64,000 bases of DNA from Solirubrum puertoriconensis (GTDB lineage: Bacteria > Bacteroidota > Bacteroidia > Cytophagales > Hymenobacteraceae): NCBI RefSeq assembly GCF_001483135.1, contig NZ_LNAL01000006.1, positions 558,003 through 622,002 on the forward strand, read 5' to 3'. The notes below the pieces were generated by a model. It did no database searches. It was given only the letters and a program-made list of their open reading frames with translations, and was not told where the DNA came from. Made by a program: the position numbers and the translations under genes. Shown here in pieces: positions 1-64,000 of this stretch; the stretch's first letter is position 1, and each line of letters begins with the position of its first letter.

Positions 1-842
1 CCAAGCTCTATTTCGCGCTGGCGCAGCTCCGCCACCCGCGCCTCCACCGGGCGGGCATCGTCGGTGGCGTGGCGGGCATAGATGCGCAGCGAGCCGCCGT
101 GGGTGGGCAGTTCCTCCACGTCGAAGAGGGTAAGGCCGTGGTGAGCAAAAATGCGCTCTACGGTGTAAAACGAGAGGTAGCTGAAATGCTCGTGGTAGAT
201 GGTATCGAACTGCCGCCCTTCAATCAGGCGCAGCAAGTGCGGAAATTCCATCGTGAGCACCCCGCCGGGCTTAAGCATGATTTTGAGCCCGCCCACAAAA
301 TCGTTGATGTCGGGCACGTGGGCTAGCACGTTGTTGCCGATCAGCAAATCGGCCTGCCCGTAGGTTGAAGCTACTTCTTGGGCCGTGCGGCGCCCGAAAA
401 ACTTGCTGAGGGTGTTGATGCCCTTGCTGCGGGCGGCGTCGGCTACGTTGCCGGCCGGCTCGATGCCGAGCACCGGAATGTCTCGCTCGAGAAAGTACTG
501 CAGCAGGTAACCGTCGTTGCTGGCCACTTCCACCACAAACTCCTCCGGCCCGATGCCAAAGCGGGTAACCATTTGCTCGGTGTAGCGGCGGGCGTGGGCC
601 AGCCACGTGGTGGAGTACGAGGAGAAGTAGCAGTATTCGTCGCGGAAGATTTTATCGGCCGGCAAAAAGTCGCCGACCTGCACCAGAAAGCAGCTGCCGC
701 ACACGCGGGCGTGCAGCGGGTACTGGGCCTCGGCCCGGTTGAAGTCCTCGGGCCGCACAAAATCCTCGCACAAGGGCGACGTGCCCAGGTCGACCAGGGT
801 GGTGTGCAGCGCCTCGCCGCAGAAGCGGCAGCGGGGTTCCAT
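1..842 (-). CDS. Class I SAM-dependent C-methyltransferase with N-terminal zinc-binding domain (3' partial)
   Basis: The frame is open from an ATG at 842 down to base 1, so the C-terminus lies outside the window. Residues 1-55 carry Cys pairs at 5/8 and 48/51, the pattern of the putative zinc-binding domain that precedes sugar C-methyltransferases (TylCIII type). A SAM-binding motif VVEVASNDGYLL follows near residues 103-114, then IGNNVLAHVPDINDF and a FDTIYHEHFSYL segment typical of this family. Members methylate a carbon of NDP-keto-deoxysugars used in O-antigen or glycan synthesis, so a cytoplasmic role in surface-sugar synthesis is likely. The remnants upstream (rfbC-like and rfbF-like) belong to the same kind of pathway. 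The family is clear; the exact sugar substrate is not. Confidence 0.88.
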   Translation of the reverse strand, partial: MEPRCRFCGEALHTTLVDLGTSPLCEDFVRPEDFNRAEAQYPLHARVCGSCFLVQVGDFLPADKIFRDEYCYFSSYSTTWLAHARRYTEQMVTRFGIGPEEFVVEVASNDGYLLQYFLERDIPVLGIEPAGNVADAARSKGINTLSKFFGRRTAQEVASTYGQADLLIGNNVLAHVPDINDFVGGLKIMLKPGGVLTMEFPHLLRLIEGRQFDTIYHEHFSYLSFYTVERIFAHHGLTLFDVEELPTHGGSLRIYARHATDDARPVEARVAELRQREIEL

Positions 843-989
843 CGCGGGTTGCACTGCATGGGGCAGCGGATTGCGCCGGTTTTTTTGCGTGGCCGCGGGC
901 AGCGGGGCGGCCGATGCGGTAGGTAGTGTTGCAGTCATCAGCAGACTATTTTGTGGTCAGATGATAAAGTGGCACGAGCGCGTGCCCGA

Positions 990-1370
990 CCAATGCGGGG
1001 TAGCACACGTCGGTACCGACTTGCAGTATGAGCAAGCCCTAGGTGAAGAGGACCGGCTTGAACAGCATCCAGAAGGATGTATCCGTTCGCGCTACGCCCG
1101 CCTACTGGCTGTCGGTAATTAGCTTCTTGCCTAGGTTCACAATCACGTGGTAGGTGGCGCCGCGGGGGCAGAGTACCCGCTTGATTTCGGCGCAAGGCTC
1201 CTGCTGCATGTGCAGGGCGCGCAACATACCCCGGCGCAGATTCGACAACGAATTGTCTTGCACCGAGGCAGCCCGGTTTTCGTAGGTATCAAACTCGATT
1301 TAGCACTACGAGCGGGCAATCAAGTCCCGTCCATCGGCCATACGCCTCGCATCGAAGATGAAAACGCTAG
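990..1370 (-). pseudogene. Remnant of a dTDP-4-dehydrorhamnose 3,5-epimerase-like (RfbC-type) gene
   Basis: On the minus strand one frame reads VQDNSLSNLRRGMLRALHMQ followed by EPCAEIKRVLCPRGATYHVIVNLG, which matches the conserved core of the RfbC family (VQDN-S..-RGVLRGLH.Q, A..K.V.C..G.I.DV.VDLR). Two in-frame stops lie just upstream of this core, near 1300-1310, and a stop follows near 1102. A short piece, LQVGTDVCYPALVGHALVPLYH, around 970-1035 is left in a different reading frame. The catalytic region is therefore interrupted at both ends and cannot make a full enzyme. Intact relatives epimerise NDP-4-keto-6-deoxyhexoses. The decay fits the neighbouring rfbF remnant; the exact ends are approximate. 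Confidence 0.7.
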
Positions 1371-1624
1371 GTAGCTCGTATTGTGGAAATTATGCAGTGT
1401 GGATGGTTGCAACTGCCGGAGCAGCTGGCCGGGCGTAAGGTGGGTGCTACTTCGGCACCTAGGGGCCGTGGCAAGCAGGGGGGACGGCCTGGCGCAGCCG
1501 CCGAAGCCGATAAAGCGTTAGTTGAAGGTGCGGATGGTGGGCACGGTAACTCGCCCGCCGACAAGGGCTGCACCGGCGCCAAGAGGACTTGTGCCAGCAA
1601 CGGGTCGGCTGCGGCGGGTTCGTC

Positions 1625-1934
1625 GCCCCACACCTTGCATGCGACGGCGCCGCGCTGCCACAAGTCGGCGAGCAGGTTTTGTCGTGCAGCATGTTCCTGG
1701 GCTGCCAGAAGCCGGTGTGCCAGTGCGCTGTCACCTTGCCGTCAGCACCGAGGCGATTGAGCCACGCTTTGTCTCAGACGATGCCGTCGTGCTCGGTGAT
1801 GCCAGTGGCCGGCGTAGATATTTATGATGTGCTACAGGATGGGCCGCCCCTATCTCAACCATAGGCTTAGGGCGGACGCCGCGTTCCTCGCTGATGCGGG
1901 TGCCGTAGCCGCCCGCCAGGATAACTGCTTTCAT
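1625..1934 (-). pseudogene. Remnant of glucose-1-phosphate cytidylyltransferase (rfbF-like), internally deleted
   Basis: The start at 1934 encodes [17 protein letters not shown] followed by RPKPMVEIG, the nucleotide-binding N-terminus of RfbF-type sugar nucleotidyltransferases. A frameshift after about 30 residues moves GRPIL[13 protein letters not shown] (the GKPILWHIMKIY block of the family) into another frame. About 150 bases later HTGFWQP and LWQRGAVACKVW appear in yet other frames and match the C-terminal GFWQ.MDTLR and LW..G.APWKVW signatures. About 180 central residues expected in this roughly 257-residue family are missing, so this is a deleted and frameshifted relic. The active enzyme would make CDP-glucose for deoxysugar synthesis. 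The gene it may have been fused to or followed by (1371-1624) can no longer be recognised. Confidence 0.75.
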
Positions 1935-2478
1935 GTTTCATGTATGAAGAGCGGTTTAGGGAGAGTAGCTGATGAGTTGTCATGCACGACTTGTTTAGAG
2001 TAATGTGCACGCTAGGCAGAGCAACAGATATGATTAAAGTTATCATTAATTGAAAGTTAATTGATATTAATCCACTTATTTATTTTTTAAAGTATATACA
2101 TGATTTGATTTGTTCAATACAAGCAATAGGTAAATAACAGGTGCTTACCTGTTGAAACGCAGATTTCGTGACTTAGCCAGTTGACTGTTGCGCTGCACGT
2201 AAGGGCGGCTAAGCTGCGGCGCGGTACCTGTCGGTACGCCATGCGCATGGCTTGTCGAGGTGACGCCGTTTGGGTGTAGTGGCATTAGGAGGCTAGGAGC
2301 GGAACCAGCGCGTTAACTCAGGCTTACGGCCCTGTTTTGATGCCATGAACTCGTGACCTTTTCCGGTTGGTGGTTTGCGCCACACCTGCCTTAATGCTCC
2401 TTAAGTACTTCGGAGCAAGACACGCCAACCTACTCAGGCCGGCAACCGTACCCGGCAGCACCCGCCAAGCCGCTGCCT
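1935..2478. other. Gene-free spacer with an AT-rich core
   Basis: No convincing gene is visible. Bases about 2020-2150 are strikingly AT-rich compared with the surrounding GC-rich sequence, with runs such as TTATTTATTTTTTAAAG. The flanks are GC-rich and contain only short open frames without recognisable motifs. It separates the decayed sugar cluster from the GAF-domain gene and could hold a promoter or a breakpoint. Confidence 0.5.
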
Positions 2479-3024
2479 ATGCCCGCTCCCGATACTGCCG
2501 AACTCGAACAAACCCTAGGTCAAAACCAAGTGCCCGAAGCCGCTCTTGAACAGGCACTAGCCCAAATCGGCCACCACCTGCGCGCCGACCGGTGCTTTCT
2601 GTACGTGCGCAACCCTGAGCGTGGCCGGGGCCGCATTGCCTTGGTGTGGCGCCTCGATGAAGCCGTGCCCGACCCGCGCCACCCGTGGCAAGACGACACC
2701 GGCGAGCTGCCACAGCAAGACCCGCTGTTCCGGGCTGCTCTGGCTGCACAACCCTCGGTGTTTGTGGATGACGTAGAAGCCGCCGGCCCCGAGGTACTCA
2801 ACCGCGAGTTCGAGCGGAAAACCTTTGGGCACCGGGCACTGGTGCATGCCCACATCGTGGACGAAGCCGGCCAGCTGTGGGCCATTTTGCAGCCTTGCGT
2901 ATTCGACCACCCTCGCCACTGGACGCCCGCCGAACGCGCGTACATTGAAGCGGCGCTGCCGTTGCTGCTGCCCGTGGTGCAGGCCTACATGCACGGGCAG
3001 AATACTCCCGAACAGCTGCCCTAG
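2479..3024 (+). CDS. GAF domain-containing protein
   Basis: This 181-residue soluble protein is essentially one GAF domain. It opens with an amphipathic helix (LEQALAQIGHHLRADRCFLYV, in two parts: helix 7-25 and strand 36-42) and continues with the alternating strands, the VFVDDVEA turn and the terminal helix (RAYIEAALPLLLPVVQAYM in shorter pieces) expected for the fold. There is no kinase, cyclase or output domain, so it is a stand-alone sensor or binding module. No cofactor-binding Cys or His of phytochromes stands out. The next gene is convergent and unrelated. The domain call is fairly safe; the ligand and role are unknown. Confidence 0.75.
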   Translation: MPAPDTAELEQTLGQNQVPEAALEQALAQIGHHLRADRCFLYVRNPERGRGRIALVWRLDEAVPDPRHPWQDDTGELPQQDPLFRAALAAQPSVFVDDVEAAGPEVLNREFERKTFGHRALVHAHIVDEAGQLWAILQPCVFDHPRHWTPAERAYIEAALPLLLPVVQAYMHGQNTPEQLP

Positions 3025-3037
3025 GTGCTGGTGGCTT

Positions 3038-3679
3038 TTACCCAGCTTGGGTGCCGTTTAGCTCGTGCTGCAGGGCTTCGAAAAACAGGCCTACGTGGTA
3101 GCCATCGGCCAGGCCGTGGTGTACGTTCACGGCTACAGGCATCAGCAGCTGTTCGCCCACCTTGCGGTAGCGGCCCACCGAAAGTTTGGGGATGCTATCG
3201 GGGTGGGAGAAAGAGCGGGCGTGGGTGAGGCCCGTAAACGACAGCCACGGAATAGCCGAAAAATGCACTACATCGAGGCGGGCGGCATTGGGGCTCAGCC
3301 GCAGGCCGGTGCTCTGCTGCACGGCCTCCATTTCGGCCGACAGCCCTAGGCCAAACTGAGTAAGCTCGGCGGCGTAGGGCACAAAGGAAAAGGCAAACGT
3401 GGAGTCGGGGCGGGTGAGCGTGGCCGATACGTGCACCTCGTCGTAACAGTACACTTGCCCGTCTTCGATGCGGTAGCGGAAGGCTTCGACCTGGTTAACG
3501 GCACGCAGCACCGCATGCAGGTACACCTGAAAAAACGAGACACCTAGGGCTTTGGCACGCTCGTACGCTGCGCTTACCTCCACATCGGCCACAATGCCAA
3601 AAAACGGCTCCTCGAAGGCGGAGAAGAAGGCAAAATGCTCGCGGCGGTTCCAGGTGGCTAAGTCAATCGGCTGCTTCAT
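3038..3679 (-). CDS. Chloramphenicol acetyltransferase-like acyltransferase
   Basis: The 213-residue product resembles the CAT (CatA/CatB3-unrelated, trimeric CoA-dependent) family along its length: an N-terminus MKQPIDLATWNRREHF..F typical of CATs, and the catalytic HHGLADG motif (HHxxxDG) at residues 187-193. The ATG at 3679 is preferred to an upstream TTG at 3688 because CAT proteins begin exactly here. Family members transfer acetyl groups from acetyl-CoA to hydroxyls, classically of chloramphenicol, but many chromosomal Bacteroidota relatives have no shown antibiotic activity, so resistance is only a possibility. The gene is divergent from the HAD gene at 3733 with only 53 bases between the start codons. 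Confidence 0.85.
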   Translation of the reverse strand: MKQPIDLATWNRREHFAFFSAFEEPFFGIVADVEVSAAYERAKALGVSFFQVYLHAVLRAVNQVEAFRYRIEDGQVYCYDEVHVSATLTRPDSTFAFSFVPYAAELTQFGLGLSAEMEAVQQSTGLRLSPNAARLDVVHFSAIPWLSFTGLTHARSFSHPDSIPKLSVGRYRKVGEQLLMPVAVNVHHGLADGYHVGLFFEALQHELNGTQAG

Positions 3680-3694
3680 GGGGCGCAAGTTCGG

Positions 3695-3702
3695 TAACTT
3701 TG
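3695..3702 (+). promoter_or_regulatory. Bacteroidota -7 element (TAACTTTG) for the HAD gene
   Basis: TAACTTTG matches the TAnnTTTG -7 consensus of Bacteroidota sigma factor. It lies about 30 bases upstream of the ATG at 3733, which supports that ATG over the TTG at 3700 that overlaps the element. Confidence 0.5.
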
Positions 3703-3732
3703 CCCGGCATCCGTACGCTTACCATTGTCTCC

Positions 3733-4446
3733 ATGCCTGCTCCTAAGCTCGTAGCCTTCGACGCCGACGATACCCTGTGGCCCAACCAGCCGCACTACGA
3801 CTACGCCGAAGCCCAACTCTACGAACTGCTTACCCACTACGCCGACGCCGACACCCTAGGTCAGCACTTTTACCAGGTGCAGCGCCGCAACTTACCGCTG
3901 TTTGGCTACGGCGCCAAGTCGTTTATGCTGGGCATGATCGAGACGGTAATCGAGCTAACCCACGGCCGCGTTACGGGCCACGAAATTCAGCAGATACTCG
4001 AATACGGCAAGCGCCTGCTCGATTTTCCCATCGAGCTGCTGCCCCACGTGCCCGAGGTACTAACCACCCTCAAAGAGCGCAAAATACCGCTGATGCTGCT
4101 CACCAAAGGTGACTTGTTCGACCAAGAAAGCAAGCTAGCCCGCTCTGGCCTAGGCGAGTACTTCGACCACCTGGAGATTGTGAGCGAGAAGAACGAGGAT
4201 ACCTACCGCCGCATTCTGGCGCGTTACCAATTGCTGCCCGAGGAGTTCCTGATGATCGGCAACTCGTTGAAATCCGACGTGCTGCCCGTAGCGTGCCTAG
4301 GTGCTCACGCCGTGTACGTGCCCTACCACACCACCTGGATACACGAACGCGTACCTGCCGAAGAACTCGAAGGCGTGGCCTTCCACCAGATCAGTTCCCT
4401 TGCCGAAGTACCTGATTACCTAACCGAACTAGAGCTACAAGGTTAA
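3733..4446 (+). CDS. HAD-superfamily hydrolase (phosphatase)
   Basis: The 237-residue protein has all four HAD motifs: motif I FDADDTLW (nucleophile Asp10, acid Asp12), motif II LLTKGD near 127, a conserved Lys in VSEKNEDTY, and motif IV GNSLKSD. The helical cap sits between motif I and II (C1 type). HAD enzymes of this shape dephosphorylate small metabolites in the cytoplasm; the substrate cannot be read from sequence. The start at 3733 is chosen because translation from the TTG at 3700 would overlap the -7 promoter element and add residues without family support. Its promoter region is shared with the divergent CAT-like gene. Confidence 0.87.
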   Translation: MPAPKLVAFDADDTLWPNQPHYDYAEAQLYELLTHYADADTLGQHFYQVQRRNLPLFGYGAKSFMLGMIETVIELTHGRVTGHEIQQILEYGKRLLDFPIELLPHVPEVLTTLKERKIPLMLLTKGDLFDQESKLARSGLGEYFDHLEIVSEKNEDTYRRILARYQLLPEEFLMIGNSLKSDVLPVACLGAHAVYVPYHTTWIHERVPAEELEGVAFHQISSLAEVPDYLTELELQG

Positions 4447-4448
4447 AG

Positions 4449-4510
4449 AGCTAGTTTCCCTCCTCAGATGAATTCCGCGTTTCGAGCGGCGTGGGCTAGG
4501 GGTGGTTGAC
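4449..4510. repeat. Copy of a dispersed repeat (CTAGTTCCCCTCCTCAGATGA ... GGGCTAGGGGTGGTTGA family, degenerate)
   Basis: AGCTAGTTTCCCTCCTCAG at 4449 and GGGCTAGGGGTGGTTGAC ending at 4510 are the two ends of a module that appears intact as an inverted pair at 49820-49980 and again at 30943-30997. The centre differs between copies. Confidence 0.65.
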
Positions 4511-4530
4511 CTCTAGTTGTGTACCAAAGG

Positions 4531-4719
4531 CGTCATGCTGAGCTTATCGAACCGACGGTCGGCTTAGTCCTTTACCAATGATATTGGAGAGTATTCTCGT
4601 CTGGGAACAGGAGTCACTATCTGTGGACGCGGACTACAACCGAAGGTCGGCGTAGCCAAAGGCCGCGCTACACCGGGCAACGAAGCGGGGGAGATGCTTC
4701 GACTATGCTCAGCATGACG
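4531..4719. repeat. MITE/REP-like element bounded by 13-bp inverted repeats
   Basis: CGTCATGCTGAGC at 4531-4543 is exactly inverted as GCTCAGCATGACG at 4707-4719, and the similarity extends imperfectly inward. The interior contains a hairpin-like GCGGACTAC...GTAGCC...GCGCTACAC piece related to the repeat at 12153-12238. No ORF is contained. Together with 4449-4510 it fills the 321-base gap between the HAD gene and the LytTR regulator. Confidence 0.6.
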
Positions 4720-4767
4720 TTTTGAGTTAAATAGTTCTGTGTCCAGCGCTTCTGGCAGCAGAGGAAA

Positions 4768-5541
4768 CTAACCCTCCAACCAATTCTTCACCGCCGCAGC
4801 CTTTTCGCGACTTACAATCACCTCATCGTTAGGTGCCGGTTGCAAATCGAGCTTCAGCTTGCCGTTGAACCACGGATGCAGGCGCTGCACGGCCGATAGC
4901 TGGGCAATAAACTGCCGGTTGAGGCGAAAAAACTGCTTAGCATCGAGCAACTGCTCGAGCTGCTCCAAGGTGTAATCGACGAGGTAGCGTTGCCCTAGGT
5001 GCGTAACGAGCGTAACGGTTTCGTTGCGGCTCTGGAACCACGCAATGTCGGTGGCTTGAATGGGTAACAGCTGCTCGCCTTGCCGCACCAAAAACCGCGT
5101 TTTGGGTTGCGGTGCTGCCGATTGCGTGTTGGTGTTGAGCAAGCTTTGCAGGCGCTGCGCCACCTCCGAGGCAGCCAAAGCGGGGCTGTGCCACTGCCGC
5201 AGCTTTTGCAGGGCGGTTTGCAGCTCGGCCAACTTAATGGGCTTCAGCAGGTAATCAACGCTGTGTGTTTTGAACGCTTGCAGGGCGTACTGATCATAAG
5301 CCGTGGTGAAGATGACGGGCGTGGTAACCACCAGCTGATCGAACACATCAAGGCTGATGCCGTCGGCGAGGTGGATATCGGCCAGAATGAGGTGCGGCTC
5401 GGGGTGGGTGCGCAGCCACTCCACGGCCCCGGCTACGGTGTCGCAGTGGGCAACTACCTGCGCATCGGGGGCGGCTTGGGCAAGCAGGCGCTGCAGCCGC
5501 TCGGCCGCCGGATATTCGTCTTCGAGCAGTAAAACGTTCAT
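4768..5541 (-). CDS. LytTR-family response regulator
   Basis: The 257-residue protein has a receiver domain at 1-120 with acidic residues Glu7/Asp8, phospho-acceptor Asp55 in LILADIHL and Lys100 in DYLLKPIK. A LytTR DNA-binding domain occupies about 148-255, including FFRLNRQFIAQL and the end KLKLDLQP. Such regulators bind direct repeats upstream of target genes after phosphorylation by a LytS-type kinase. The partner kinase is immediately upstream (42-base gap) and the two are probably co-transcribed with the two membrane-protein genes before it. Which genes it controls cannot be told from the window; the operon itself is a common target. Confidence 0.93.
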   Translation of the reverse strand: MNVLLLEDEYPAAERLQRLLAQAAPDAQVVAHCDTVAGAVEWLRTHPEPHLILADIHLADGISLDVFDQLVVTTPVIFTTAYDQYALQAFKTHSVDYLLKPIKLAELQTALQKLRQWHSPALAASEVAQRLQSLLNTNTQSAAPQPKTRFLVRQGEQLLPIQATDIAWFQSRNETVTLVTHLGQRYLVDYTLEQLEQLLDAKQFFRLNRQFIAQLSAVQRLHPWFNGKLKLDLQPAPNDEVIVSREKAAAVKNWLEG

Positions 5542-5583
5542 CAGGGTGGTGCCAATTCAGTGGAGGTGCTACCCAGGGCTGCT

Positions 5584-6642
5584 TTAGCTGGCCAGGGCTT
5601 TGCTGCCGAGCTCGGCGCCCGTGGGCTCAGGAGCCAGCAAGGGCAACTGCACGCTGAAGGTAGTTGCCTCGTCGAGCACCGCAACGGGGCGCTGCGGAGC
5701 CAGCAGGGCATACCGCTCGCGAATGTTGCGCAGGCCCGTGCCGGTGCTGGGCCCCAGGCTGGTGATGCGGGCGCGGCGGGCATTGAGCACCGTTAGCCAG
5801 CCATCGGCGGTGGCGGCTACGTGCACGTGCAGCGGATTTTGGCGCGAGGCTTCGTTATGCTTCAGGGCATTTTCGATGAGCAGCTGCACGCTAAGCGGGG
5901 CCACCCGGTGCTCGAGCAACTCGGCGGGCACCGCTAGGCTTACCTGCAGGTTGTCGCGCAAGCGGGCTTTTTGCAGCGCCACGTAGGCCTCCACAAACGC
6001 CAGCTCGTCGTGCAGCGGCACCAGGCTCCGCTCGCGGCTCAGCAGCACGTAGCGGTACACATCGGCGAGGCGCTCCACAAAGTCCTGGGCGGGCTCGTTG
6101 TCGGGCTCGATGAGGGCCGAGAGCGTGTTGAGGGAGTTGAACAGAAAATGCGGATCGAGCTGCTGCTGCAGGGCTTCGAGCTGGGCGCGTTGGTTGGCGC
6201 TTTGCAGCTGCTCGGCCCGCCGCACGTTTTGCTCCCACTGCAGAAAAAAATGTCGGCTTTCGTAGCCCAGCTGCACCACCGTGGTAGGTATCAGATCGAA
6301 GATAATTTGCTGCGCCATAAACGCAGGCGCTAGGCTGAAGTATTGCGGCATGAACAGGTGCATGAGCGCTACTAAGCCAATGGTAGCCAAGCTGGTGTAG
6401 AGCAAGCTGCCCACGGCCAACCACCACAGGCGCCGGGCCGTTTGGTGCACCTCTGGAAAGCGTTGCAACAACACATCCCAGAGGGCGCGGTTGCCCAGCC
6501 ACAGCACCGCCGTGAAGAGCAGCGACACGGCCCAACTAACCAAGAACACCGGCCACGAGAGCAAGTGGCCGCCGTTGCCGAGCAGCACAATGAGTAGGCT
6601 GAGCAGCGGTATTCCGATTAGGCGAATGCGACGGTCGTTCAT
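5584..6642 (-). CDS. LytS/YpdA-type sensor histidine kinase
   Basis: The 352-residue protein starts with a membrane domain of about four helices (roughly 8-120, no large periplasmic loop), followed by a coiled-coil segment and a His_kinase domain with the phospho-acceptor His165 in QLDPHFLFNSLN. The C-terminal ATPase part has the N-box LIENALKHN and the GTGLRNIRERY G-box. ATG 6642 (MNDRRIRLIGIP) is preferred; the longer frame from 6687 begins at the last codon of the upstream gene and adds 15 unlikely residues. It should phosphorylate the LytTR regulator encoded next. A short four-helix sensor domain suggests sensing within the membrane. Confidence 0.92.
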   Translation of the reverse strand: MNDRRIRLIGIPLLSLLIVLLGNGGHLLSWPVFLVSWAVSLLFTAVLWLGNRALWDVLLQRFPEVHQTARRLWWLAVGSLLYTSLATIGLVALMHLFMPQYFSLAPAFMAQQIIFDLIPTTVVQLGYESRHFFLQWEQNVRRAEQLQSANQRAQLEALQQQLDPHFLFNSLNTLSALIEPDNEPAQDFVERLADVYRYVLLSRERSLVPLHDELAFVEAYVALQKARLRDNLQVSLAVPAELLEHRVAPLSVQLLIENALKHNEASRQNPLHVHVAATADGWLTVLNARRARITSLGPSTGTGLRNIRERYALLAPQRPVAVLDEATTFSVQLPLLAPEPTGAELGSKALAS

Positions 6643-6687
6643 GGCGAAGAGCTGACGGCCCCTGGGAAGCGCCGTGAAGATAACCAC

Positions 6688-7548
6688 CTAGGGCAGTGAA
6701 ACGAGCGGCAGGCCCTGCACGGCATGCCAGTACAGCCACGCTACGCCGCCGGCATAGAGCGCGGCAAACAGTACCACACTTAGGGCCTGAACGTTGGGCC
6801 GTAGCTGCGGCAGGTAGCGCGTAATCAGCCAGCCTACCAGCGGTATGGCTTGCAGCGCGTGCAGACCCAGGAAGTGCGCGGCGCGCAAATCACCGTGGCG
6901 GGTGCTCCAGCCCAGTAAGGGCAGGCCGGCGCCGCCGTCGGCGGCGCCTACGGTGTGCGCCAGGCGAGCCGACATGCTGCCGCCCACCGCGCTGCCTACC
7001 AGGAACAAAATCAACCCTAGGCGCATGCCCCAAACCCAGGCCGAGGAGCCGTGGGGCCGGTGCCGGAACATCAGCCAAATGGCCCACACAATGGCAATGG
7101 TGTTGATGAGGATAAACACGCCCATCAGCTGAAACACAACGGCATCGAATAAGGAGCTGATGTTGAAGTGCGAGGTAGTGCCGCGCGCGGCTTGCAGGTA
7201 CACGCAGCTGATTTCGATGGCCAGGGCCACGCCCACCAAGCGCCCGATGCGGCGGGCACTGCGTTGCACCTGCGCGGGCAAATCGGCCAGCAGCCACGCC
7301 AACGACCACAAGTACACCACCCCAGCAATGCTGAACTTAATGGGCTTTACCCACACGTTGAGCCCCGTTACGGTGCGCTCATCCAAAGGCCATAGCACCA
7401 GGGCTGCCGCCATTAGCGCTACGTGCAGCCAGCCAGCCCAGGCCAACGCCGGTTGGCAACCGTGGATGATGCGCAGCCAGGTGGGGCGCTTGAGCAACGC
7501 GGCAGGAACTGCCTCAACGGCCATGGCGGGGGCAAGTGCAGTTTTCAT
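6688..7548 (-). CDS. Polytopic membrane protein, about seven helices
   Basis: The 286-residue protein has about seven hydrophobic helices (near 35-52, 70-88, 102-120, 133-157, 172-190, 225-240 and 255-275). Polar residues embedded in or near helices, including TSHFNISS and RHGDLRAAHFLGLHALQ, could bind a cofactor or metal. I recognise no named family with certainty. It sits between the ABA4-like gene (36 bases upstream) and the LytS kinase (45 bases downstream), all in the same direction, so it is probably part of the same operon and may be the sensed or regulated component. Function unknown. Confidence 0.8.
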   Translation of the reverse strand: MKTALAPAMAVEAVPAALLKRPTWLRIIHGCQPALAWAGWLHVALMAAALVLWPLDERTVTGLNVWVKPIKFSIAGVVYLWSLAWLLADLPAQVQRSARRIGRLVGVALAIEISCVYLQAARGTTSHFNISSLFDAVVFQLMGVFILINTIAIVWAIWLMFRHRPHGSSAWVWGMRLGLILFLVGSAVGGSMSARLAHTVGAADGGAGLPLLGWSTRHGDLRAAHFLGLHALQAIPLVGWLITRYLPQLRPNVQALSVVLFAALYAGGVAWLYWHAVQGLPLVSLP

Positions 7549-8249: not shown

Positions 8250-8975
8250 GTGAACCTGCTCGTCCACTACTCGTTGCTTGGAGGCTTGCTTGCCATTGGC
8301 TGGCCCGCTGCTGCTCGCTCCTTTTCAGCTAGCCCCAACATCCTAGGTGCGGCCGATAGCAGCCGCGTGCGGCAGGCGCACCGGCGGGTGGTATTTCAGT
8401 TCGATCAGCGGTTTTCGCTGCTGCAAAACGAGCTGGTGGGCATCAACGGCGTGAAGCTGGGCGTGGAGTGGCGCGGCCGCCTGCGCACCGGCGTGGGCGT
8501 ATATTTTCTGGGCAGTGCTTTGCCCACCAATGCGCCGGCACCCTTTCCGCTGCCGGCTGGCACCGAAAACACTGTGCGCTTTCGCTATGCCGCTCTTTAC
8601 GGCGAGTACGTGCTCATTGGCACGCCGCGCTGGGAGCTAAGCGTGCCCGTGCAAGCGGGACTGGGCCGCTACTACGTGCGCTACGAGCAACCCGATGGCA
8701 GCGTATACCGCACGCCGCGGCAGCATATTTGGCTTGTCGAGCCAACCCTGGGTGGGCACATGCGCGTGTTTCGGTGGGTAGGAGTGGGCGCCGGCGCCGG
8801 TTACCGTCAAGCCTTGCTCACCAACAAAAACCTCGAAAACGACATCAGCGGTGCCATTTTTTACGGCCGCGTAAAGCTCTTTTTGGGCGACCTGTACAAA
8901 ATCGTGCGGGGCCGGCAGCGGTTGTTTTCGCAGCAAGGCCTGCGCCGCTCCGATTACGTACCACACCAACCCTAG
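8250..8975 (+). CDS. Exported protein, possible outer-membrane beta-barrel
   Basis: The 241-residue protein starts with GTG and has an export signal (LLGGLLAIGWPAAARS). The mature part is built of alternating amphipathic strands rich in Gly and aromatic residues (GVKLGVEWRGRLRTGVGVYF, RYAALYGEYVLIG, VGVGAGAGYRQ), as in small outer-membrane barrels. No named family is recognised. The only in-frame start near the signal peptide is GTG 8250. It is divergent from the ABA4-like operon and converges on the small exported protein at 9051, with a shared hairpin between them. Exported status is fairly certain; the barrel is an inference. Confidence 0.72.
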   Translation: MNLLVHYSLLGGLLAIGWPAAARSFSASPNILGAADSSRVRQAHRRVVFQFDQRFSLLQNELVGINGVKLGVEWRGRLRTGVGVYFLGSALPTNAPAPFPLPAGTENTVRFRYAALYGEYVLIGTPRWELSVPVQAGLGRYYVRYEQPDGSVYRTPRQHIWLVEPTLGGHMRVFRWVGVGAGAGYRQALLTNKNLENDISGAIFYGRVKLFLGDLYKIVRGRQRLFSQQGLRRSDYVPHQP

Positions 8976-8982
8976 GTAAAAC

Positions 8983-9030
8983 GCCTCCGCCCCCAACCTA
9001 GGCTGTAGCAGCAGGGTTGGGGGCGGAGGC
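8983..9030. terminator. Bidirectional hairpin terminator
   Basis: A perfect 16-bp stem, GCCTCCGCCCCCAACC at 8983-8998 and its complement at 9015-9030, lies between two convergent genes. The loop begins with part of a CCTAGG site. Confidence 0.7.
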
Positions 9031-9050
9031 ACAAGCCGATAGGGGTGGGG

Positions 9051-9446
9051 TTACTGTTTAGTAACGGTTACGCCGGTAGAGGTGCGCGAGCGGCGCATCA
9101 TGAAGCGCATGGTTACGCCGTTGGTGCCCTTGCCGTCGAGGTCGTCGGTTTGCAGCAGCTCCCAACCCAACGAGCCCATGTAGTTAAGCGCCGTAACGTA
9201 GGTGCTGAATACCTGCAGCTTGCCCACTTCTACTTTCGAGAGCGAGCCGCCGCCCAGCTTTTCCATGCCGTAGCCGAAGTCGGAGAAGATGTCGCCGTTG
9301 TTGCGCACCGTTAGCTCGCAGTACTCGTAGCGAGCCGCATCGGGGGCTGCGGCAAGCGTAGCTGAGGGTTTGGTTTGGGCGCTGGCGGCCAACGGGGCAA
9401 CGGCGCAAGCAGCAAGCAAAAACGAAGCAGCGAAAAGCTTTTTCAT
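9051..9446 (-). CDS. Small secreted protein of unknown function
   Basis: The 131-residue product has a clear signal peptide (MKKLFAASFLLAACAVAPLA, cleavage after ASA near 23). The mature part starts with an Ala-rich linker and then has a compact segment with YEYCELTVRN and LNYMGSLGWELLQ, a pattern seen in Bacteroidota proteins that end in a GWEL motif of the DUF4177 type. That family assignment is tentative. A hairpin at 9482-9518 lies just upstream of the start and the gene has no close co-directional partner. Confidence 0.75.
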   Translation of the reverse strand: MKKLFAASFLLAACAVAPLAASAQTKPSATLAAAPDAARYEYCELTVRNNGDIFSDFGYGMEKLGGGSLSKVEVGKLQVFSTYVTALNYMGSLGWELLQTDDLDGKGTNGVTMRFMMRRSRTSTGVTVTKQ

Positions 9447-9844
9447 AAGCGGTTAGGGTATTCGAGGGTACTAAGAAAGCAAAAATGCCGGCTGCTTTAG
9501 CAACGCAGCCGGCATTTTCACTACTGAAAGTGCAAGAATATGGTTGAGCTTAGACGGAAGATACTTTTTAGGTGCTTTCGGATTAGTGGGGCACCTCTTT
9601 AGGCTGTCGTTCTGAGGAACGAGCCGAAGGACCCTCTCGCGCGGCAGCGACTTCCCTAGGTCGTCATGCAGAGGCGCAGCCGAACCAAAGGTCAGCGTAG
9701 CTAAGCATCTCGCCAGGTAGTATTCTACTAGCCAGCGTCAGCACGCGAGATTCCTCGCTTTGCTCGGAATGACGTTGGTTGCCTAGGTCGTACTTGCATA
9801 AGGAGGCTCTTTGGCCGGCGCCTCAGGATGAGGGTTTCCCTAGG
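9447..9844. other. Gene-free spacer with hairpin and repeats
   Basis: No gene is visible. The stretch holds an inverted repeat AAAATGCCGGCTGC (9482-9495) with its complement at 9505-9518, which may terminate the transcript of the peptidase gene upstream, then a degenerate REP-like repeat at 9606-9774, and three CCTAGG sites within about 190 bases. Confidence 0.6.
9606..9774. repeat. REP/MITE-like imperfect inverted repeat
   Basis: The ends GTCGTTCTGAGGAACGAG and, inverted, CTTTGCTCGGAATGACG belong to the same general GTCATnCTGAGC pattern as 4531-4719 and 26108-26169. Inside, TCGTCATGCAGAGGCGCAGC at 9661 is the reverse complement of the motif at 51589-51614 and 54560-54582. Confidence 0.55.
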
Positions 9845-12022
9845 TTAGTTCGCGTTCGGCAAGAATGAATACTTGCGGCCGTACTCCAGCATTTGCTGGG
9901 CAAAGTCGCTGGGGTACTCGAGCTTCACGTCTACCACTTTGCCTTCGCGCTCGACCGGCACCAAGCGCGGCTGAATGAAGCCGGCGTAGGGCGCAATGTT
10001 CAGCTTTTGGTAGCGCTGCAGCACCTCCTTGTGAATGGCTGGGTCCACTTTCACGCCGTAGGTCTCGATGAGGGTTTTGGCGCCGTTGTAGTCACCTTCG
10101 CTCGTAATGCGCTGGGTTTCGCGCAGCAGCTGGCCGAAGAGGTTGCGCAGCTTGTCGTAGTCGTTGATACGGAAGTAGGTTTTGCCGTCCTTCTGCACCT
10201 TCTCAACCACGTTGTCTTTGCGGCCCTTTTCATAAGCCCATTTGGCCACCATCTGGCGGTTGCGCATGTGCGCCTCCTCCACGGTTTCACCGAGGGTCAG
10301 ACGCGAAAGCTGCGTCATCAGGCCGTTGCGGATGTAGCTGTCGTACTCGGCTTTGCCTACCTCCAAGTTGGGCACCACGCCCAGCTGAATCAGCTTGTGG
10401 TCCATGAGGTAGTACAGGGCCACCAAGTCGGCGCGACCTTCCTCAATGGCCGAGGCGTAGCTTTTCAGGGTTTCCTTGGTGGTGCCTACGCCGGGGTTCA
10501 GCTGGCCCGACGCGTGGCCAATTACCTCGTGCATATCGGTGTGCAGCTTGCCGGCCAGCGAGCCATACTGCTTGGCACGCTGCTTTTCCTCGTCGGAGTA
10601 AGCAAACTCGTCGAGCATGCCGCCGGCCGAGGCTTGGTCGTAGGCTTCCACGATGTTGCCCAGCTGCACCGACTTCGAGCCGTGCTCCTTGCGAATCCAG
10701 GTAGCGTTGGGCAGGTTGATGCCGATGGGCGTGGCCGGGGCCGCATCGCCCGACTCCACAACGGTGGTAATTACCTTGGCCGTGATGCCCACCACGTTCT
10801 TCTTTTTGTGCTCGGGCTTGATAGGCGAGTTGTTCTCAAACCACTGCGCCTGGTCGCCGATGGCCTTGATGCGCTTGGTGGCCTCCAGGTCCTTAAACGA
10901 CACCACCGATTCGTACGACGCGCGGTAGCCCAGCGGGTCGCCGTACACCTCGATAAAGCCGTTCACCACATCCACCCGCGACTTGGTATCGTGCACCCAG
11001 GCAATGTTGTAGTCGTCCCACACCTTCAGGTCGCCGGAGCTGTAGTACTTCACGAGCTTCTGCAGGGCCAGCTTTTGCTCGGGCGTCTCGGCCACGTCGG
11101 CCGCTTTGCCTAGCCAATACACAATTTGCGTAATGGCCGGGCTGTAGAGGCCGCCCACTTTCCAGGGCTGCTCCACAATCTTGCCCGATTTGTCCTTTAC
11201 CAGCCGCGAGTTGAGGCCGTAGGAAATCGGGCGTAGGTCTTTCTTGTTGATTTTTTTGGCGTAGTAATCCTCTACCTCTTTCTGCGTCAGGTTTTGGTAG
11301 AAGTTGTTGGCCGAGGTTTTCACCAAATCCTGCCCAGCCTCCTGGTTTACGCGCTTGGCGTCGAGGGTGGGGTCGAAGATGACGGGCGTGATGGCGGCCA
11401 GGAACTGATCGACCGACTCGCCGGGCAGCAGCGGCAGCGACTTGCTATCGACGCCGCGTACCAGCTCGGCAAAGTACTCGCGCGAGCATTCGGGCACAAA
11501 CTTGCGGGTGCTGTAGTGGTGGTGCACGCCGTTGCTGAACCACACGCGCTTGGCGTACACGTTAAGCTTCTGGGCCTGATCTACCTGCTGCGTGTTGGAG
11601 GAGCTGGCCATGCGCTGCTGGTTGGCCTCCCACAGCGCCTCGAGGGTGCGGCGCACGCGCAGGTTGTGGCGATAATTTTGGTCGTAGATGATGTCGCGGC
11701 CGGCCAAAGCGGCTTCGTAGAGATAATACAGCAGTTCCTTCTGTTTGGGATCGAGCTGCTCGAAACCCGGCACCTGGTAGCGCAGCACACGTAAATCGGC
11801 AAACTGCTCGGTAACAACTTTAAAGGATTGTTCGTCGGCCGGCGCGGCCACTGGGGTAGCAGCAGGAGTGGCTGCGGCAGCTATGTCGGCGCCTAGGTTA
11901 TTTACAGCGTTGGAAGTGGCCGAAGCAGCGGCATCGGTGGTTGGTTGGGTGGTGGCAGCCGCGCAACCTGCCAAGCCGAGGCTCAGCAGCCACGCAGCGT
12001 GGCGGAAAAGGGTATTTTTCAT
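9845..12022 (-). CDS. Dipeptidyl-peptidase III-like zinc peptidase (M49), lipoprotein
   Basis: The 725-residue protein begins with a lipoprotein signal (LLSLGLAGC, lipid Cys20) and an Ala/Thr-rich linker. The M49 zinc motif HEVIGH lies at about 498-503 and the second ligand motif EEGRADLVALYYL about 40 residues later (family: EECRAE). M49 enzymes remove dipeptides from the N-terminus of peptides. The lipid anchor places it in the envelope, so it probably helps digest peptides in the periplasm or at the surface. ATG 12022 is used because the alternative at 12061 would put 13 residues before a perfect lipoprotein signal. Monocistronic. Confidence 0.92.
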   Translation of the reverse strand: MKNTLFRHAAWLLSLGLAGCAAATTQPTTDAAASATSNAVNNLGADIAAAATPAATPVAAPADEQSFKVVTEQFADLRVLRYQVPGFEQLDPKQKELLYYLYEAALAGRDIIYDQNYRHNLRVRRTLEALWEANQQRMASSSNTQQVDQAQKLNVYAKRVWFSNGVHHHYSTRKFVPECSREYFAELVRGVDSKSLPLLPGESVDQFLAAITPVIFDPTLDAKRVNQEAGQDLVKTSANNFYQNLTQKEVEDYYAKKINKKDLRPISYGLNSRLVKDKSGKIVEQPWKVGGLYSPAITQIVYWLGKAADVAETPEQKLALQKLVKYYSSGDLKVWDDYNIAWVHDTKSRVDVVNGFIEVYGDPLGYRASYESVVSFKDLEATKRIKAIGDQAQWFENNSPIKPEHKKKNVVGITAKVITTVVESGDAAPATPIGINLPNATWIRKEHGSKSVQLGNIVEAYDQASAGGMLDEFAYSDEEKQRAKQYGSLAGKLHTDMHEVIGHASGQLNPGVGTTKETLKSYASAIEEGRADLVALYYLMDHKLIQLGVVPNLEVGKAEYDSYIRNGLMTQLSRLTLGETVEEAHMRNRQMVAKWAYEKGRKDNVVEKVQKDGKTYFRINDYDKLRNLFGQLLRETQRITSEGDYNGAKTLIETYGVKVDPAIHKEVLQRYQKLNIAPYAGFIQPRLVPVEREGKVVDVKLEYPSDFAQQMLEYGRKYSFLPNAN

Positions 12023-12152
12023 GGATGAGTTGGGAAGGGCAAAAAAGCCGGCACAAAGCAACGCATTCGGCCTGCTAAATCACAATGCAAATACGGCGCC
12101 GTAATGGCGTAGCAAGCAGTGTAGTATTCTCAGTCGTTGCGCGGCTTGGCAT

Positions 12153-12238
12153 GATGTAGCGTGGGCTTGGCTACGCTACATTTTCCTAGGTACAAACAAT
12201 ACAATCCGCGGACGCGGACTACGGAGTCCGCGCTACAC
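12153..12238. repeat. Two small hairpins of a TGTAGCG...CGCTACA type
   Basis: TGTAGCGT and ACGCTACA pair around 12155-12181, and GCGGACT pairs with AGTCCGC at 12214-12233, followed by GCTACAC. Related sequence occurs at 4622-4672 and at the very end of the window (TGTAGCGCGGGCTGAAGCCC). Confidence 0.45.
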
Positions 12239-12242
12239 GCAA

Positions 12243-13361: not shown

Positions 13362-13561
13362 GCGGCGAAGGGTACGGGGCGAAAAAACAATAGCCGATAG
13401 CTGATACCGGCAACGCAAAAGAAAGGATGCACAGCCAATGCCCGTGCGACTGCCAAGAGCAACAGCGCCGACGGCCACCTAGGGTGCTGCTAAGTCGTTT
13501 GCGGTTGGTGGTTAAGTGCTGGCTTTTTGTAACTTATAATCAGCACCTAATCCTCAGCACT

Positions 13562-13765: not shown

Positions 13766-13781
13766 TGTGATCGGGCGGCGT

Positions 13782-18936: not shown

Positions 18937-18982
18937 GGGAGCAGGAGAAATAGGCCGAAGTACAAAGTACGTGTGAAAAGCC

Positions 18983-30997: not shown

Positions 30998-31079
30998 AAT
31001 CGTTGCTGACGCCCGCACCATCCGCCTGCCAGGCCTGCCACCCGCTCCACCCGCAAAACCACCTAGGGGCCCAAAGCAC

Positions 31080-35147: not shown

Positions 35148-35212
35148 CGCTTTGGTGCCCAGCGGTACAGGCGCTGGCAGGACCTAGGGCGCAAGCATCA
35201 GGCAGAAAAAAC

Positions 35213-40533: not shown

Positions 40534-40815
40534 AGGATCGGGTACAATGAGTAGTAGTGTACCACCGTGCTGTGCATTTAGTTGTGCAAAACCGCCTGCT
40601 CTGTCGCCCACAAATCCCTAGGGCCTTGGTGTTACTACTGCTGTGCCACAGTGCGGGTACGTAGAGAAGGCAACCCAAAATCAGCAATTGCCCTATGGCT
40701 AAACCCGTATTAATCCAGGATCAATAGGCAAGGCTGCTCCGTTAAAGGGCAAATAATCGGACAATCGACCGATCGGTACACATTCCTCATCTGTCCTTTC
40801 TAGGCACCATTTGCC

Positions 40816-49746: not shown

Positions 49747-49769
49747 GACGGCTAAAGCTAGGAAGGAGG

Positions 49770-49793: not shown

Positions 49794-49819
49794 CTTCTTT
49801 TTTGTATCTAATCCTTTAA

Positions 49820-49980: not shown

Positions 49981-50066
49981 TTTATAAAGTGACTGTTTAT
50001 TTACAGCACAAATAATTCAGCTTTTCAGCCTTTCAACAGTTGAGAAGAGAATCGAGCATTTAGCCC

Positions 50067-50074
50067 TAGTTTTG
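50067..50074 (+). promoter_or_regulatory. Candidate -7 element (TAGTTTTG)
   Basis: TAGTTTTG fits TAnnTTTG and ends 20 bases before the ATG at 50095 of the T9SS plug gene. Confidence 0.45.
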
Positions 50075-50094
50075 GCCGAATCGTACTTGCTAGT

Positions 50095-51471: not shown

Positions 51472-51513
51472 TCGGCCGCGCACCCAGGCTGTGCCTGGAA
51501 AGGATGAAACGGG

Positions 51514-51614
51514 TCATGCTTCATCTGGCGTCCGTTTGCCGAAGCATCTCTGCCGCTTCGCTGGATAGAAGGTTACTATCAGGAGAGATGCTTTGGCTGC
51601 GCCTCTGCATGACG
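51514..51614. repeat. REP-like repeat copy
   Basis: GTTACTATCAGGAGAGATGC at 51572 and TTGGCTGCGCCTCTGCATGA up to 51612 recur almost unchanged at 54541-54582, and in reverse complement inside 9661-9684. An inward-facing GTCATGCTTCATC lies at the left end. Confidence 0.6.
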
Positions 51615-51678
51615 TTCAGTTACCACCTAGGGCACAGCAGCAGCAGGGGCAACCCTAGGATGGAGTAATTAAGCCCAT

Positions 51679-55851: not shown

Positions 55852-56412
55852 TTAGTTGAACGCGTAGCGGTAATACGCCGGAATTTCGCGCAAGAGGCTG
55901 TACATATCCCGAAGCTCGAAATAGTCTGCGTGTGCTCCGTATACCTGATGGTTGCCTTGTTGCTTTAGGAGCATTTTGGTGCGGGTAATATGGTAGAATT
56001 GCGACACAACTAGCACCGAGCCCAATTGCTGGCGTTGCGCCACAGCAGCAAAGTTTTGGGCCGTAGCCCGCGTGGTGTTTCCTAGGTTATCCTCGATGAT
56101 GGCATCGGCAGGGACGCCAGCAGCTTCGAGATAAGCAGCCATAGCCCGGCCTTCGTAATGGCCCTCTTTGCCGAGCCCACCGCTCACCATCACAACGGGA
56201 GCCAGCTTTTGCCGATACAACTCCAAGCCTTTGTCGAGCCGCGCCTGCAAGCGAGCCGACAGCGTGCCATTGGGATTAACTGTGTTGCCTAGGATCAGGA
56301 TGCAATCGGCCGGTTGCGGATTGTCGTCGAGGCCATCCAAAGTGGTGAGGATAGCGTGAGATACGAACCAGAAAACCAGGAATTGAGCAAAGAGGCGTAG
56401 GGCCGGTTTCAT
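55852..56412 (-). CDS. YdcF/SanA-family protein (DUF218)
   Basis: The 186-residue protein has an N-terminal membrane helix (about 7-25) and a DUF218 domain: ADCILILGNTVNPNGTLSARL, APVVMVSGGLGKEGHYEGRAM and EDNLGNTTRATAQNFAAVAQR, followed by VVSQFYHITRTKMLLKQQG. These motifs form a nucleotide- or phosphate-binding pocket. SanA relatives act in envelope permeability; the reaction is unknown. ATG 56412 is used; the longer frame begins with a Cys-rich piece that is not conserved. Confidence 0.88.
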   Translation of the reverse strand: MKPALRLFAQFLVFWFVSHAILTTLDGLDDNPQPADCILILGNTVNPNGTLSARLQARLDKGLELYRQKLAPVVMVSGGLGKEGHYEGRAMAAYLEAAGVPADAIIEDNLGNTTRATAQNFAAVAQRQQLGSVLVVSQFYHITRTKMLLKQQGNHQVYGAHADYFELRDMYSLLREIPAYYRYAFN

Positions 56413-63487: not shown

Positions 63488-63665
63488 GGTTATTGAGGTA
63501 GAAGCACCTAGGGTGCTGTTACGGTTGCTGATGAGCTAGCCAGGCCGCTTGGCTTGGCCATTTGTGGATACCAAACTACAGCCCGGGCGCGAACTTGCTG
63601 CTATATTTGCCGCCCGAATTGGCAACAATCACTGGGCGAGGAGCAAAACGTGTCGAACTTTTGCT

Positions 63666-63673
63666 TACCTTTG
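63666..63673 (+). promoter_or_regulatory. -7 element (TACCTTTG) of the 52-residue ORF
   Basis: TACCTTTG matches TAnnTTTG, 40 bases before the ATG at 63713. A second TATATTTG at 63602-63609 might be an alternative. Confidence 0.5.
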
Positions 63674-63712
63674 CCCCCTCATTCTGCAGAATAGACTCAA
63701 ACCGACCGCGTC

Positions 63713-63871
63713 ATGACCGTTACTCGTCTTAAGCGTAAGCACCGCAAGAACATCGCCCGCGCCAACAACAAGGTGCAGGAAATTAAAGATCTGCTCCGCA
63801 CGCCCGTTCTGAAGAACGTGGACATCGAGGAGCTGAAGGCTAGCTTCAAAAAGAACGAAGCTGCTGCCTAA
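63713..63871 (+). CDS. Small basic protein, 52 residues
   Basis: An ATG at 63713 opens a 52-codon frame. The N-terminus (MTVTRLKRKHRKNIARANNK) is strongly basic and nucleic-acid-binding in look; the middle forms a helix (VQEIKDLLRTPVLKNVDIEE) and the end is KKNEAAA. It is too short to be caught by ordinary length cut-offs, but a good -7 element (TACCTTTG) upstream, a basic residue pattern and a strong terminator after it support a real gene. I recall similar short unannotated Bacteroidota ORFs but cannot name a family. Role may be ribosome- or DNA-associated (inference). Confidence 0.7.
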   Translation: MTVTRLKRKHRKNIARANNKVQEIKDLLRTPVLKNVDIEELKASFKKNEAAA

Positions 63872-63938
63872 GTTTTAAGCCGCGGCTTCCTCCGCGGGAA
63901 GCCGAAACGGCATCCCGGCCGGTCGGCTGGTAATAGCA

Positions 63939-63972
63939 AAAAGCGCCTTGCGTGGCCACGCAAGGCGCTTTT
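63939..63972 (+). terminator. Rho-independent terminator
   Basis: AAAAGCGCCTTGCGTGG and its exact complement form a 34-base palindrome, followed by GTTTTTTG. It ends the 52-residue ORF and may also work leftward. Confidence 0.88.
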
Positions 63973-64000
63973 GTTTTTTGTGTAGCGCGGGCTGAAGCCC

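Follow-up and report, generated by a model that had tools for sequence, protein, structure and literature searches.

The closest described counterparts of the word reported here are the DNA uptake sequences (DUS) of the Neisseriaceae and the uptake signal sequences (USS) of the Pasteurellaceae, together with the highly iterated palindromes (HIPs) of cyanobacteria. According to two reports, DUS and USS are present in thousands of copies without orientation bias, their spacing is reported as even, and they form dialects with a common core (PMC3630211, PMC1939737). HIPs reach a density near one per kb, are sporadically replaced by other words, and nearly all of them are accompanied by a cognate methyltransferase, although some genomes have HIP1 and no CGATCG methyltransferase (PMC4390886). 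The present work concerns the hexamer CCTAGG in a 64,000-nucleotide stretch of DNA (hereafter, the window) from Solirubrum puertoriconensis, a member of the Hymenobacteraceae in the Bacteroidota (contig NZ_LNAL01000006.1, positions 558,003 to 622,002), in the rest of its genome (G000), and in its relatives. We tentatively suggest, at somewhat less than an even chance, that all these sites represent a single word, ACCTAGGG, which is selected, specific to the chromosome and used for self-recognition, and which would work like an uptake sequence. Like DUS and USS, the G000 word occurs in thousands of short exact copies, with even spacing, no orientation bias and dialects; unlike them, it belongs to another phylum and is an 8-bp unit built on the palindrome CCTAGG; moreover, most species of the family show only background levels of it, and the enriched ones differ in their words. 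With HIP1 it shares a density of about one per kb, a palindromic core and sporadic replacement, and it is found in genes and spacers.

The original prediction had estimated about 85 CCTAGG sites in the window where about 20 would be expected; the exact count is 90, and base composition (G+C 0.585) predicts 20.1. Markov models of order 1, 2 and 3 predicted 14.2, 11.9 and 21.0 sites. With the order-4 background proposed as a check, the excess was still present in the window but only 1.37-fold (90 against 65.8), a weak test, since its inputs include CCTAG and CTAGG, both raised by the same word. In the whole genome (4.80 Mb, 8 contigs), CCTAGG was counted 6212 times, or about one copy per 770 bases, against 136 for the reversed control GGATCC; the excess is real, and the word is frequent genome-wide, as had been claimed. 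GGATCC is not a neutral yardstick, since it is itself under-represented in G000. Among eight genomes of the genus, three (G000, G004 and G007) hold 5325-6212 copies and five hold 123-249. The three are mutually nearest, with 86.5-87.2% identity in the aligned parts of the chunks analyzed, against 78-80% to two outgroups. Counts of the octamer, of its flanks and of its orientation in these three genomes refer to 400-kb chunks each, and triplets separated by spaced slashes follow the order G000 / G004 / G007. As a separate observation, CGATCG and GGATCC were strongly under-represented in the chunks of G000, G004, G007, G001 and G005 (CGATCG, 27 against 180 in G000), and TGCGCA was about twofold over-represented in four of these five.

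The flanks of the sites proved to be non-random, as had been claimed: in G000, the base before CCTAGG was A in 46% of the cases and the base after it was T in 47%. However, a left A together with a right T was observed only 15 / 6 / 9 times against 124 / 124 / 113 expected, and four other palindromes showed no comparable deficit, with small numbers. In the window, 37 sites were of the form A..(not T), 39 of the form (not A)..T, and 14 had neither base, while none of the 90 had both. The flanks orient the unit, so that the description of the site as a palindrome did not stand: in G000, the full unit is the oriented octamer ACCTAGGG. Counted on both strands, this octamer was found 290 / 321 / 306 times against 7.9 / 6.9 / 7.0 expected; in 200 kb of each outgroup, it was found once, where 2.5 and 2.4 copies were expected. 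Single changes at positions 1-7 brought the observed-to-expected ratio down to 0-3.4 in the three enriched genomes, and at position 8 the preference was for G, then C or A (eight- to twelvefold), then T (1.7- to 3.3-fold). A longer repeat element was ruled out, as the information outside the octamer was at most 0.16 bits. Inverted pairs in spacers are a feature of DUS; pairs of oriented units within 60 bp in spacers were also mostly inverted in the G000 clade (5 / 18 / 13 inverted and 1 / 0 / 3 in tandem).

To assign sites to genes and spacers, genes were called with a simple hexamer caller made for this analysis. Among the 60 coding sites of the window, 58 are in the Leu-Gly phase, two in the CCT-AGG phase and none in the third phase, which bears out the claim that coding use is almost only Leu-Gly; the remaining sites comprise 24 that are non-coding and six that straddle a gene edge. 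In the 400 kb of G000, 355 sites were in the Leu-Gly phase, 39 in the CCT-AGG phase and none in the third, with 139 non-coding and 34 at edges. Each of the nine spacer positions named in the original prediction is at most 2 bases away from a site, and none of them falls within a gene call other than at its edge. A preference for the CTA-GG codon pair, with no role at the DNA level, would fit the 58 of 60 sites in the Leu-Gly phase, but this explanation is refuted by the spacers, which are enriched about eightfold (139 sites against 17.0 expected in G000) and are two to three times denser than genes. Per kb, sites numbered 2.59 / 2.73 / 2.57 outside genes and 1.14 / 1.12 / 0.87 inside them. As the word is enriched in genes and spacers alike, codon usage alone is insufficient, in agreement with what had been proposed. 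Moreover, a check of CTA outside the word context showed that this codon makes up 61% of Leu codons between C and GG but 6-9% in the other three contexts (1-4% in all contexts of the outgroups). Bases beyond the codon pair also influence the choice, and we regard codon usage as virtually discounted. Genes are remodelled synonymously toward the word: of 412 Leu-Gly pairs after a C not preceded by A, 255 had GGT as the Gly codon, as compared to 17 of 121 in G001. The Leu-Gly dipeptide itself was 12-14% above expectation in the three enriched genomes, against ratios of 0.96-1.01 in the outgroups. Co-directional spacers showed no bias toward the orientation of transcription (same/opposite 30/31, 39/38 and 41/42 in the three genomes), and in genes the Leu-Gly phase favoured the reverse orientation (123/190, 129/181 and 102/138).

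The word is also spaced more evenly than chance. The close-pair ratio of CCTAGG was 0.79 / 0.76 / 0.74, the lowest among 166 / 175 / 153 six-base words with 420-700 copies per genome (medians 1.06-1.08), and its nearest competitors were the overlapping ACCTAG and, in G000 only, AAGCGC (0.82). Pairs 6-400 bp apart numbered 264 / 272 / 213 against 343 / 366 / 283 expected, and gaps of up to 200 bp numbered 107 / 127 / 101 against 147 / 153 / 125 under relocation keeping the coding/spacer split. The deficit of close gaps persisted under relocation on the lattice of Leu-Gly opportunities, reached about 400 bp and faded by 1 kb; in addition, the variation in gap length was reduced in G000 and G004. 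Leu-Gly positions that had remained unconverted were nearer to another site than converted ones, with medians of 213 against 314.5 bp in G000 (p 2e-8), 207 against 321 in G004 (p 4e-8), and 257 against 345.5 in G007 (p 2e-4). A bias of mutation or repair, such as very-short-patch repair acting in the direction opposite to Vsr, would turn near-matches into CCTAGG with no function involved; however, a local process would be blind to a second site 200 bp away, and since spacing depends on other sites nearby, a purely local bias is an unlikely source of the word.

Retention and gain of sites were analyzed in three-way alignments of 272 kb, made of BLAST pieces of at least 150 bases; few sites were aligned in alignments to the named relatives. 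Changes were assigned to branches by two-against-one parsimony, with expectations derived from trinucleotide controls and both strands counted. Single-step losses amounted to 48 against 215 expected in G000 and 32 against 256 in G004; in G007 there were 122 against 254, and 110 of these were the central T>C / A>G change, which occurred at the control rate. In spacers, 4 of 41 sites were lost in G004 and only 2 of 39 in G007, while other six-base words changed in 27-31% of the cases. Overall, the sites resist loss, in genes in two of the three genomes and in spacers most clearly in G004 and G007. Single-step gains exceeded the control in G000 (38 against 19.2) and G004 (20 against 14.1). Sites one transition away from the word were converted in 10 of 36, 6 of 40 and 2 of 23 cases with the A/T flank, and in 5 of 53, 1 of 46 and 1 of 37 without it (G000, G004 and G007, respectively).

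The nature of the changes partly agrees with a mutation or repair bias. Over the three terminal branches, each of the 33 single-step gains turned C into T at the third position of CCTAGG or G into A at the fourth; another 20 gains involved more than one position. The absence of other single-step types says little because opportunities for them were few. Moreover, G007, alone among the three enriched genomes, has a Vsr gene, and there the flow runs the other way: of 61 single-step CCTAGG losses, 55 went back from T to C or from A to G at these positions. In addition, CTTGG had become CCTGG 69 times, as compared to 6 and 12 times in the other two genomes, which looks like a genome-wide footprint of Vsr. 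This suggests that Vsr erodes the word in G007 wherever its loss is silent, with the copies in spacers being retained. Nevertheless, such a bias leaves unexplained both the suppressed loss at other positions and the choice of the Gly third base, and it should affect plasmids too, unless these are recent; as the origin of the word, we consider it improbable.

For the comparison of chromosome and plasmids, plasmid status was presumed from contig size alone, and 20-80 kb of the longer contigs was covered. The word is nearly absent from small presumed plasmid contigs, with 2 sites in 51 kb (three contigs of G004), 11 in 120 kb (two contigs of G007), and 2 on a 12.5-kb contig of G000, while stretches of three other large G000 contigs and of the G007 chromosome had 1.15-1.7 sites per kb. 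A further contig of G000, of 259 kb, had 1 site in its first 20 kb. Within the G007 chromosome, two stretches of about 8 kb that do not align to the other two genomes had 0 and 1 sites, where about 10 are usual. Accessory and shared chromosomal parts had 1.20 and 1.42 sites per kb in G004, which is no clear difference, and 0.86 and 1.22 in G007, where the accessory part was lower.

Chi and KOPS (FtsK-orienting polar sequences) are short oriented words that are over-represented on the chromosome and strand-biased. The G000 word resembles them in being short, oriented and chromosome-enriched, but it is without clear strand polarity. Forward and reverse copies of ACCTAGGV numbered 248/252, 277/247 and 225/233 in the three genomes, where GC skew was positive overall, and another 100 kb of G007 had 73 and 54 by strand. 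With forward and reverse copies so close in number over 400 kb, a replication-polar mark of the Chi or KOPS type is unlikely and was set aside. The main rival to an uptake-type reading is, in broader terms, a chromosome-maintenance word with an intracellular reader, which could be a Chi-type recombination regulator, a nucleoid protein, or a factor in replication or segregation, and for which one copy per few hundred bases would be enough. This rival accounts just as well for the even spacing and for the scarcity of the word on presumed plasmids, and ACCTAGGG alone is slightly commoner on one strand (156/134, 182/139 and 159/147); however, the clear strand bias of polar systems is not seen.

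The distribution of the word among relatives bears on the same question. Named relatives were found with one G000 protein and are mostly Hymenobacter species; in addition, among 200 genomes of the family, drawn from a larger group, nine hold more than 5000 CCTAGG, four hold 1209-2331 and 187 hold at most 888. Enriched genomes outside the genus favour other octamers (palindromes being counted on both strands). G058 favours CCCTAGGG (66 against 2.3 expected in 62 kb) and G079 favours ACCTAGGT (54 against 1.0 expected in 40 kb), a preference shared by G178, G180 and a locus of H. crusticola. G184 and one locus titled BT559 lean to ACCTAGGG and ACCTAGGC, and G137 has mixed octamers; no dialect was assignable to G137, G162 and G163, for which there were 10-25 kb of sequence or too few sites. 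The dialects ACCTAGGG, ACCTAGGT and CCCTAGGG have a common core. Codon contexts differ accordingly: considering rows with at least four CTA codons for the other dialects, CTA was used in 18 of 19 CC-Leu-GGG contexts in G058, in 15 of 15 AC-Leu-GGT contexts in G079, in 16 of 17 AC-Leu-GGT contexts in the group of G178, G180 and H. crusticola, and in 54 of 60 AC-Leu-GGG contexts in G000, as compared to 6 of 115 C-Leu-Gly contexts in six named non-enriched loci. Separately, two records titled Hymenobacter sp. BT559 (L017 and L018) had 1 and 37 CCTAGG in 21.9 kb and were about 76% identical where aligned, which perhaps reflects different strains or a naming problem.

A dimeric DNA-binding protein would suit the palindromic dialects seen in G058 and G079, and ACCTAGGG may be read as one half-site of each palindromic kind; both points favour an intracellular reader. 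Nevertheless, background levels in 187 of 200 family genomes and words that vary between relatives would be odd for a core function, unless words outside our search serve the others. We consider an intracellular reader possible, but rather unlikely.

As regards HIP1, to which the original prediction had likened the word, the density and the replacement by other words elsewhere agree with what is described for HIPs (PMC4390886). The likeness does not extend to a palindromic unit, which the G000 clade lacks and which is present only in the G058 and G079 dialects, nor, among five families searched, to a cognate enzyme. A HIP1-type explanation would have the word kept by a solitary CCTAGG methyltransferase, for instance via methyl-directed mismatch repair. 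Profile searches covered PF01555 and PF00145 in the eight genus genomes, and PF02384, PF02086 and PF07669 in 14 genomes; none of these five families was matched in each of G000, G004 and G007. G000 had no match to PF00145, PF02086, PF02384 or PF07669 (other methyltransferase families were not searched), and its sole match among the five, a PF01555 methylase, lies beside a SmaI-family nuclease (PF17411) in a convergent SmaI-type restriction-modification pair on the 12.5-kb contig. SmaI cuts CCCGGG. G004 had no match to PF00145, PF01555 or PF02086, but one to PF02384 and one, below cut-off, to PF07669. The methylation reading that had been proposed is not supported, with no cognate methyltransferase among the five families. 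The missing enzyme is no absolute bar, because HIP1 genomes without a CGATCG methyltransferase exist (PMC4390886). Altogether, we do not file the word as a HIP, since two HIP features were tested and neither was found in G000, and we regard an explanation of this type as very unlikely.

Regarding our preferred reading, an uptake-like self-recognition word, we infer that the word identifies DNA as self. DNA carrying the word would be bound by a candidate receptor at the cell surface or in the periplasm, and the bound DNA would be imported through ComEC and then recombined into the chromosome. DNA with the word would be taken up more often, and the word would accumulate on the chromosome as a result, with returns that diminish wherever a copy is already present in the surrounding few hundred bases. 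This build-up on the chromosome probably dates back to the common ancestor of G000, G004 and G007, and the word is probably still kept by selection or by drive acting on the whole word. All of the 37 genomes searched have a member of the ComEC family (PF03772). In contrast, PF00437, the ATPase family of type IV pili and type II secretion, was above cut-off in only one of the 37, as a full T2SSE ATPase in the non-enriched genome G043, and an importer in Hymenobacteraceae would work without the usual type IV pilus motor. In Riemerella, transformation needs ComEC, DprA, ComF, RecA and four proteins of unknown function, one of them predicted to be fimbrial (PMC8459023). Riemerella columbina, also a member of the Bacteroidota, prefers its own DNA, and the authors of that report left open which word is recognised (PMC7965970).

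Several results weigh against this reading. In terms of machinery, PF00437 was matched in none of nine enriched genomes (other pilus genes were not searched), and ComEC is equally present in enriched and non-enriched genomes. As for retention and gain, G000 lost 8 of 45 spacer sites, little below the control of 22-25%; gains in G007 were 8 against 11.6 expected, that is, without excess; and G007 lost 69 of 204 coding sites, above other words (26-28%), an excess that we ascribe to Vsr. Moreover, G000, G004 and G007 share most sites and are not independent of one another. Evenness was incomplete, as the variation of gap length in G007 was not reduced (1.04 against 1.05 for random), and the spacing effect in the His/Asn/Asp/Tyr-Leu-Gly subset (p 0.03 in G000 and 0.04 in G004) was absent in G007 (p 0.82). 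Sites unique to one genome were not compensated by new sites nearby in four of five comparisons (p 0.04-0.09 in one). It may be that the small contigs are just recent arrivals, and accessory and shared chromosomal densities in G000 showed no difference (1.35 and 1.36 per kb). In addition, DUS and USS are non-palindromic, as is the unit in the window's clade, but the dialects ACCTAGGT and CCCTAGGG of G079 and G058 are perfect palindromes. A literature search that covered few subscription papers returned nothing joining Hymenobacter and 'uptake sequence'; it likewise returned nothing joining CCTAGG and Hymenobacter, or highly iterated palindromes and Bacteroidetes. Unlike the genomes with DUS or USS, those enriched here have no match to the type IV pilus ATPase, and because the known motor is missing and uptake is deduced from sequence, we do not file the word as a DUS.

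Other iterated words were noticed in the family. Counts of AACTATAG, CTACCCCC, GGGGCCCC, GCCCCCCA and AAGTATAA come from one locus of about 20 kb per species and serve as leads only. In two Pontibacter loci (L079 and L080), AACTATAG was found 34 times per 22-kb locus, against 0.5 and 0.7 expected, at 4.5 and 3.6 per kb in spacers and 0.6 and 1.0 in genes; in a third (L081), AAGTATAA was found 28 times against 1.3 expected. Hyper-abundant words in Hymenobacter loci were CTACCCCC (L023, L035, L040 and L061), GCCCCCCA (L075 and L076) and GGGGCCCC (L041, L045 and L077), with CTACCCCC being strand-skewed in L040 (19 and 6) and L061 (15 and 4) and not in L023 (8 and 11). Two further octamers contain CTAG, namely GGCTAGCC in L014 and L017 (in L014, 30 when counted on both strands, or 15 sites, against 3.8 expected) and TGGCCTAG in L020, L026, G171 and G172 (17 in L020 and L026, against 1.3 and 1.4 expected). 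More speculatively, with roughly the standing of a one-in-three guess, Hymenobacteraceae might carry species-specific DNA self-recognition (uptake) octamers. In several lineages these would be composed of half-sites flanking CTAG; they would be recognised by an importer without the type IV pilus motor and could switch dialect between relatives, with the Pontibacter AACTATAG and the other octamers noticed here as further dialects.

Table 1. CCTAGG sites of the window (start positions of CCTAGG; octamers as ranges) and other genes noted. Signs: + = ACCTAGGV, - = BCCTAGGT,. = neither.
Feature	Position	Sign	Remark
CCTAGG, coding (60)	2514- 3345. 3543+ 3855- 4149. 4296- 4994- 7016. 7871- 8342- 11892- 12433+ 13102- 15364+ 17785- 18818. 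18881. 20044+ 20371+ 20911+ 21004+ 21538. 22021+ 22513+ 24941- 25853+ 26211. 27958- 30785- 32434+ 33077- 33599. 33965+ 34169+ 34649+ 35872. 36247+ 37552+ 39557+ 40412+ 42606- 43090- 43825- 44086+ 44476+ 46038+ 48087- 48192- 50215+ 54254. 54304+ 56081- 56288. 58432- 59133- 59775- 60837- 61620- 62058- 62589-	after each position	
CCTAGG, non-coding (24)	1038- 1130- 1458+ 8997+ 9655- 9782- 9839- 12185- 14335- 16482- 17716+ 18513- 21809+ 27277+ 30117- 31062+ 35183+ 40617. 49779- 51626+ 51654. 52296+ 55747+ 63507+	after each position	
CCTAGG, gene edge (6)	3020- 6687+ 8971- 13478+ 41120. 56463+	after each position	
Spacer octamer	9654..9661	-	one of three between 9.65 and 9.84 kb
Spacer octamer	9781..9788	-	
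Spacer octamer	12184..12191	-	
Gene-edge octamer	13477..13484	+	
Spacer octamer	31061..31068	+	
Spacer octamer	35182..35189	+	
Spacer site without A/T flank	40616..40623	.	
Spacer octamer	51625..51632	+	28 bp from site at 51654
Spacer octamer	63506..63513	+	
Subtilase with Por secretion sorting domain	35265-38066		window
Type IX secretion system (T9SS) plug protein	50095-51471		window
SmaI-type restriction-modification pair	G000:C4:4122-7841		L083
Vsr gene	G007:C1:3010308-3010520		L183
T2SSE ATPase (PF00437)	G043:C16:16932-18044		L204

Hyper-iterated words with a likely function have been treated in Neisseriaceae, Pasteurellaceae and cyanobacteria, and here one is described in Bacteroidota, found with neither the methyltransferase of HIPs nor the pilus ATPase of uptake words. 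Relatives with the word, without it, and with other words form a natural series, and in the Vsr-bearing G007 a known repair enzyme seems to be eroding a word of this kind. How a genome gains thousands of copies of one word thus becomes testable in environmental bacteria, as does the manner in which Bacteroidota that prefer their own DNA recognise it. If the uptake-like reading is true, these would be the first self-recognition (uptake) words of this kind in Bacteroidota.

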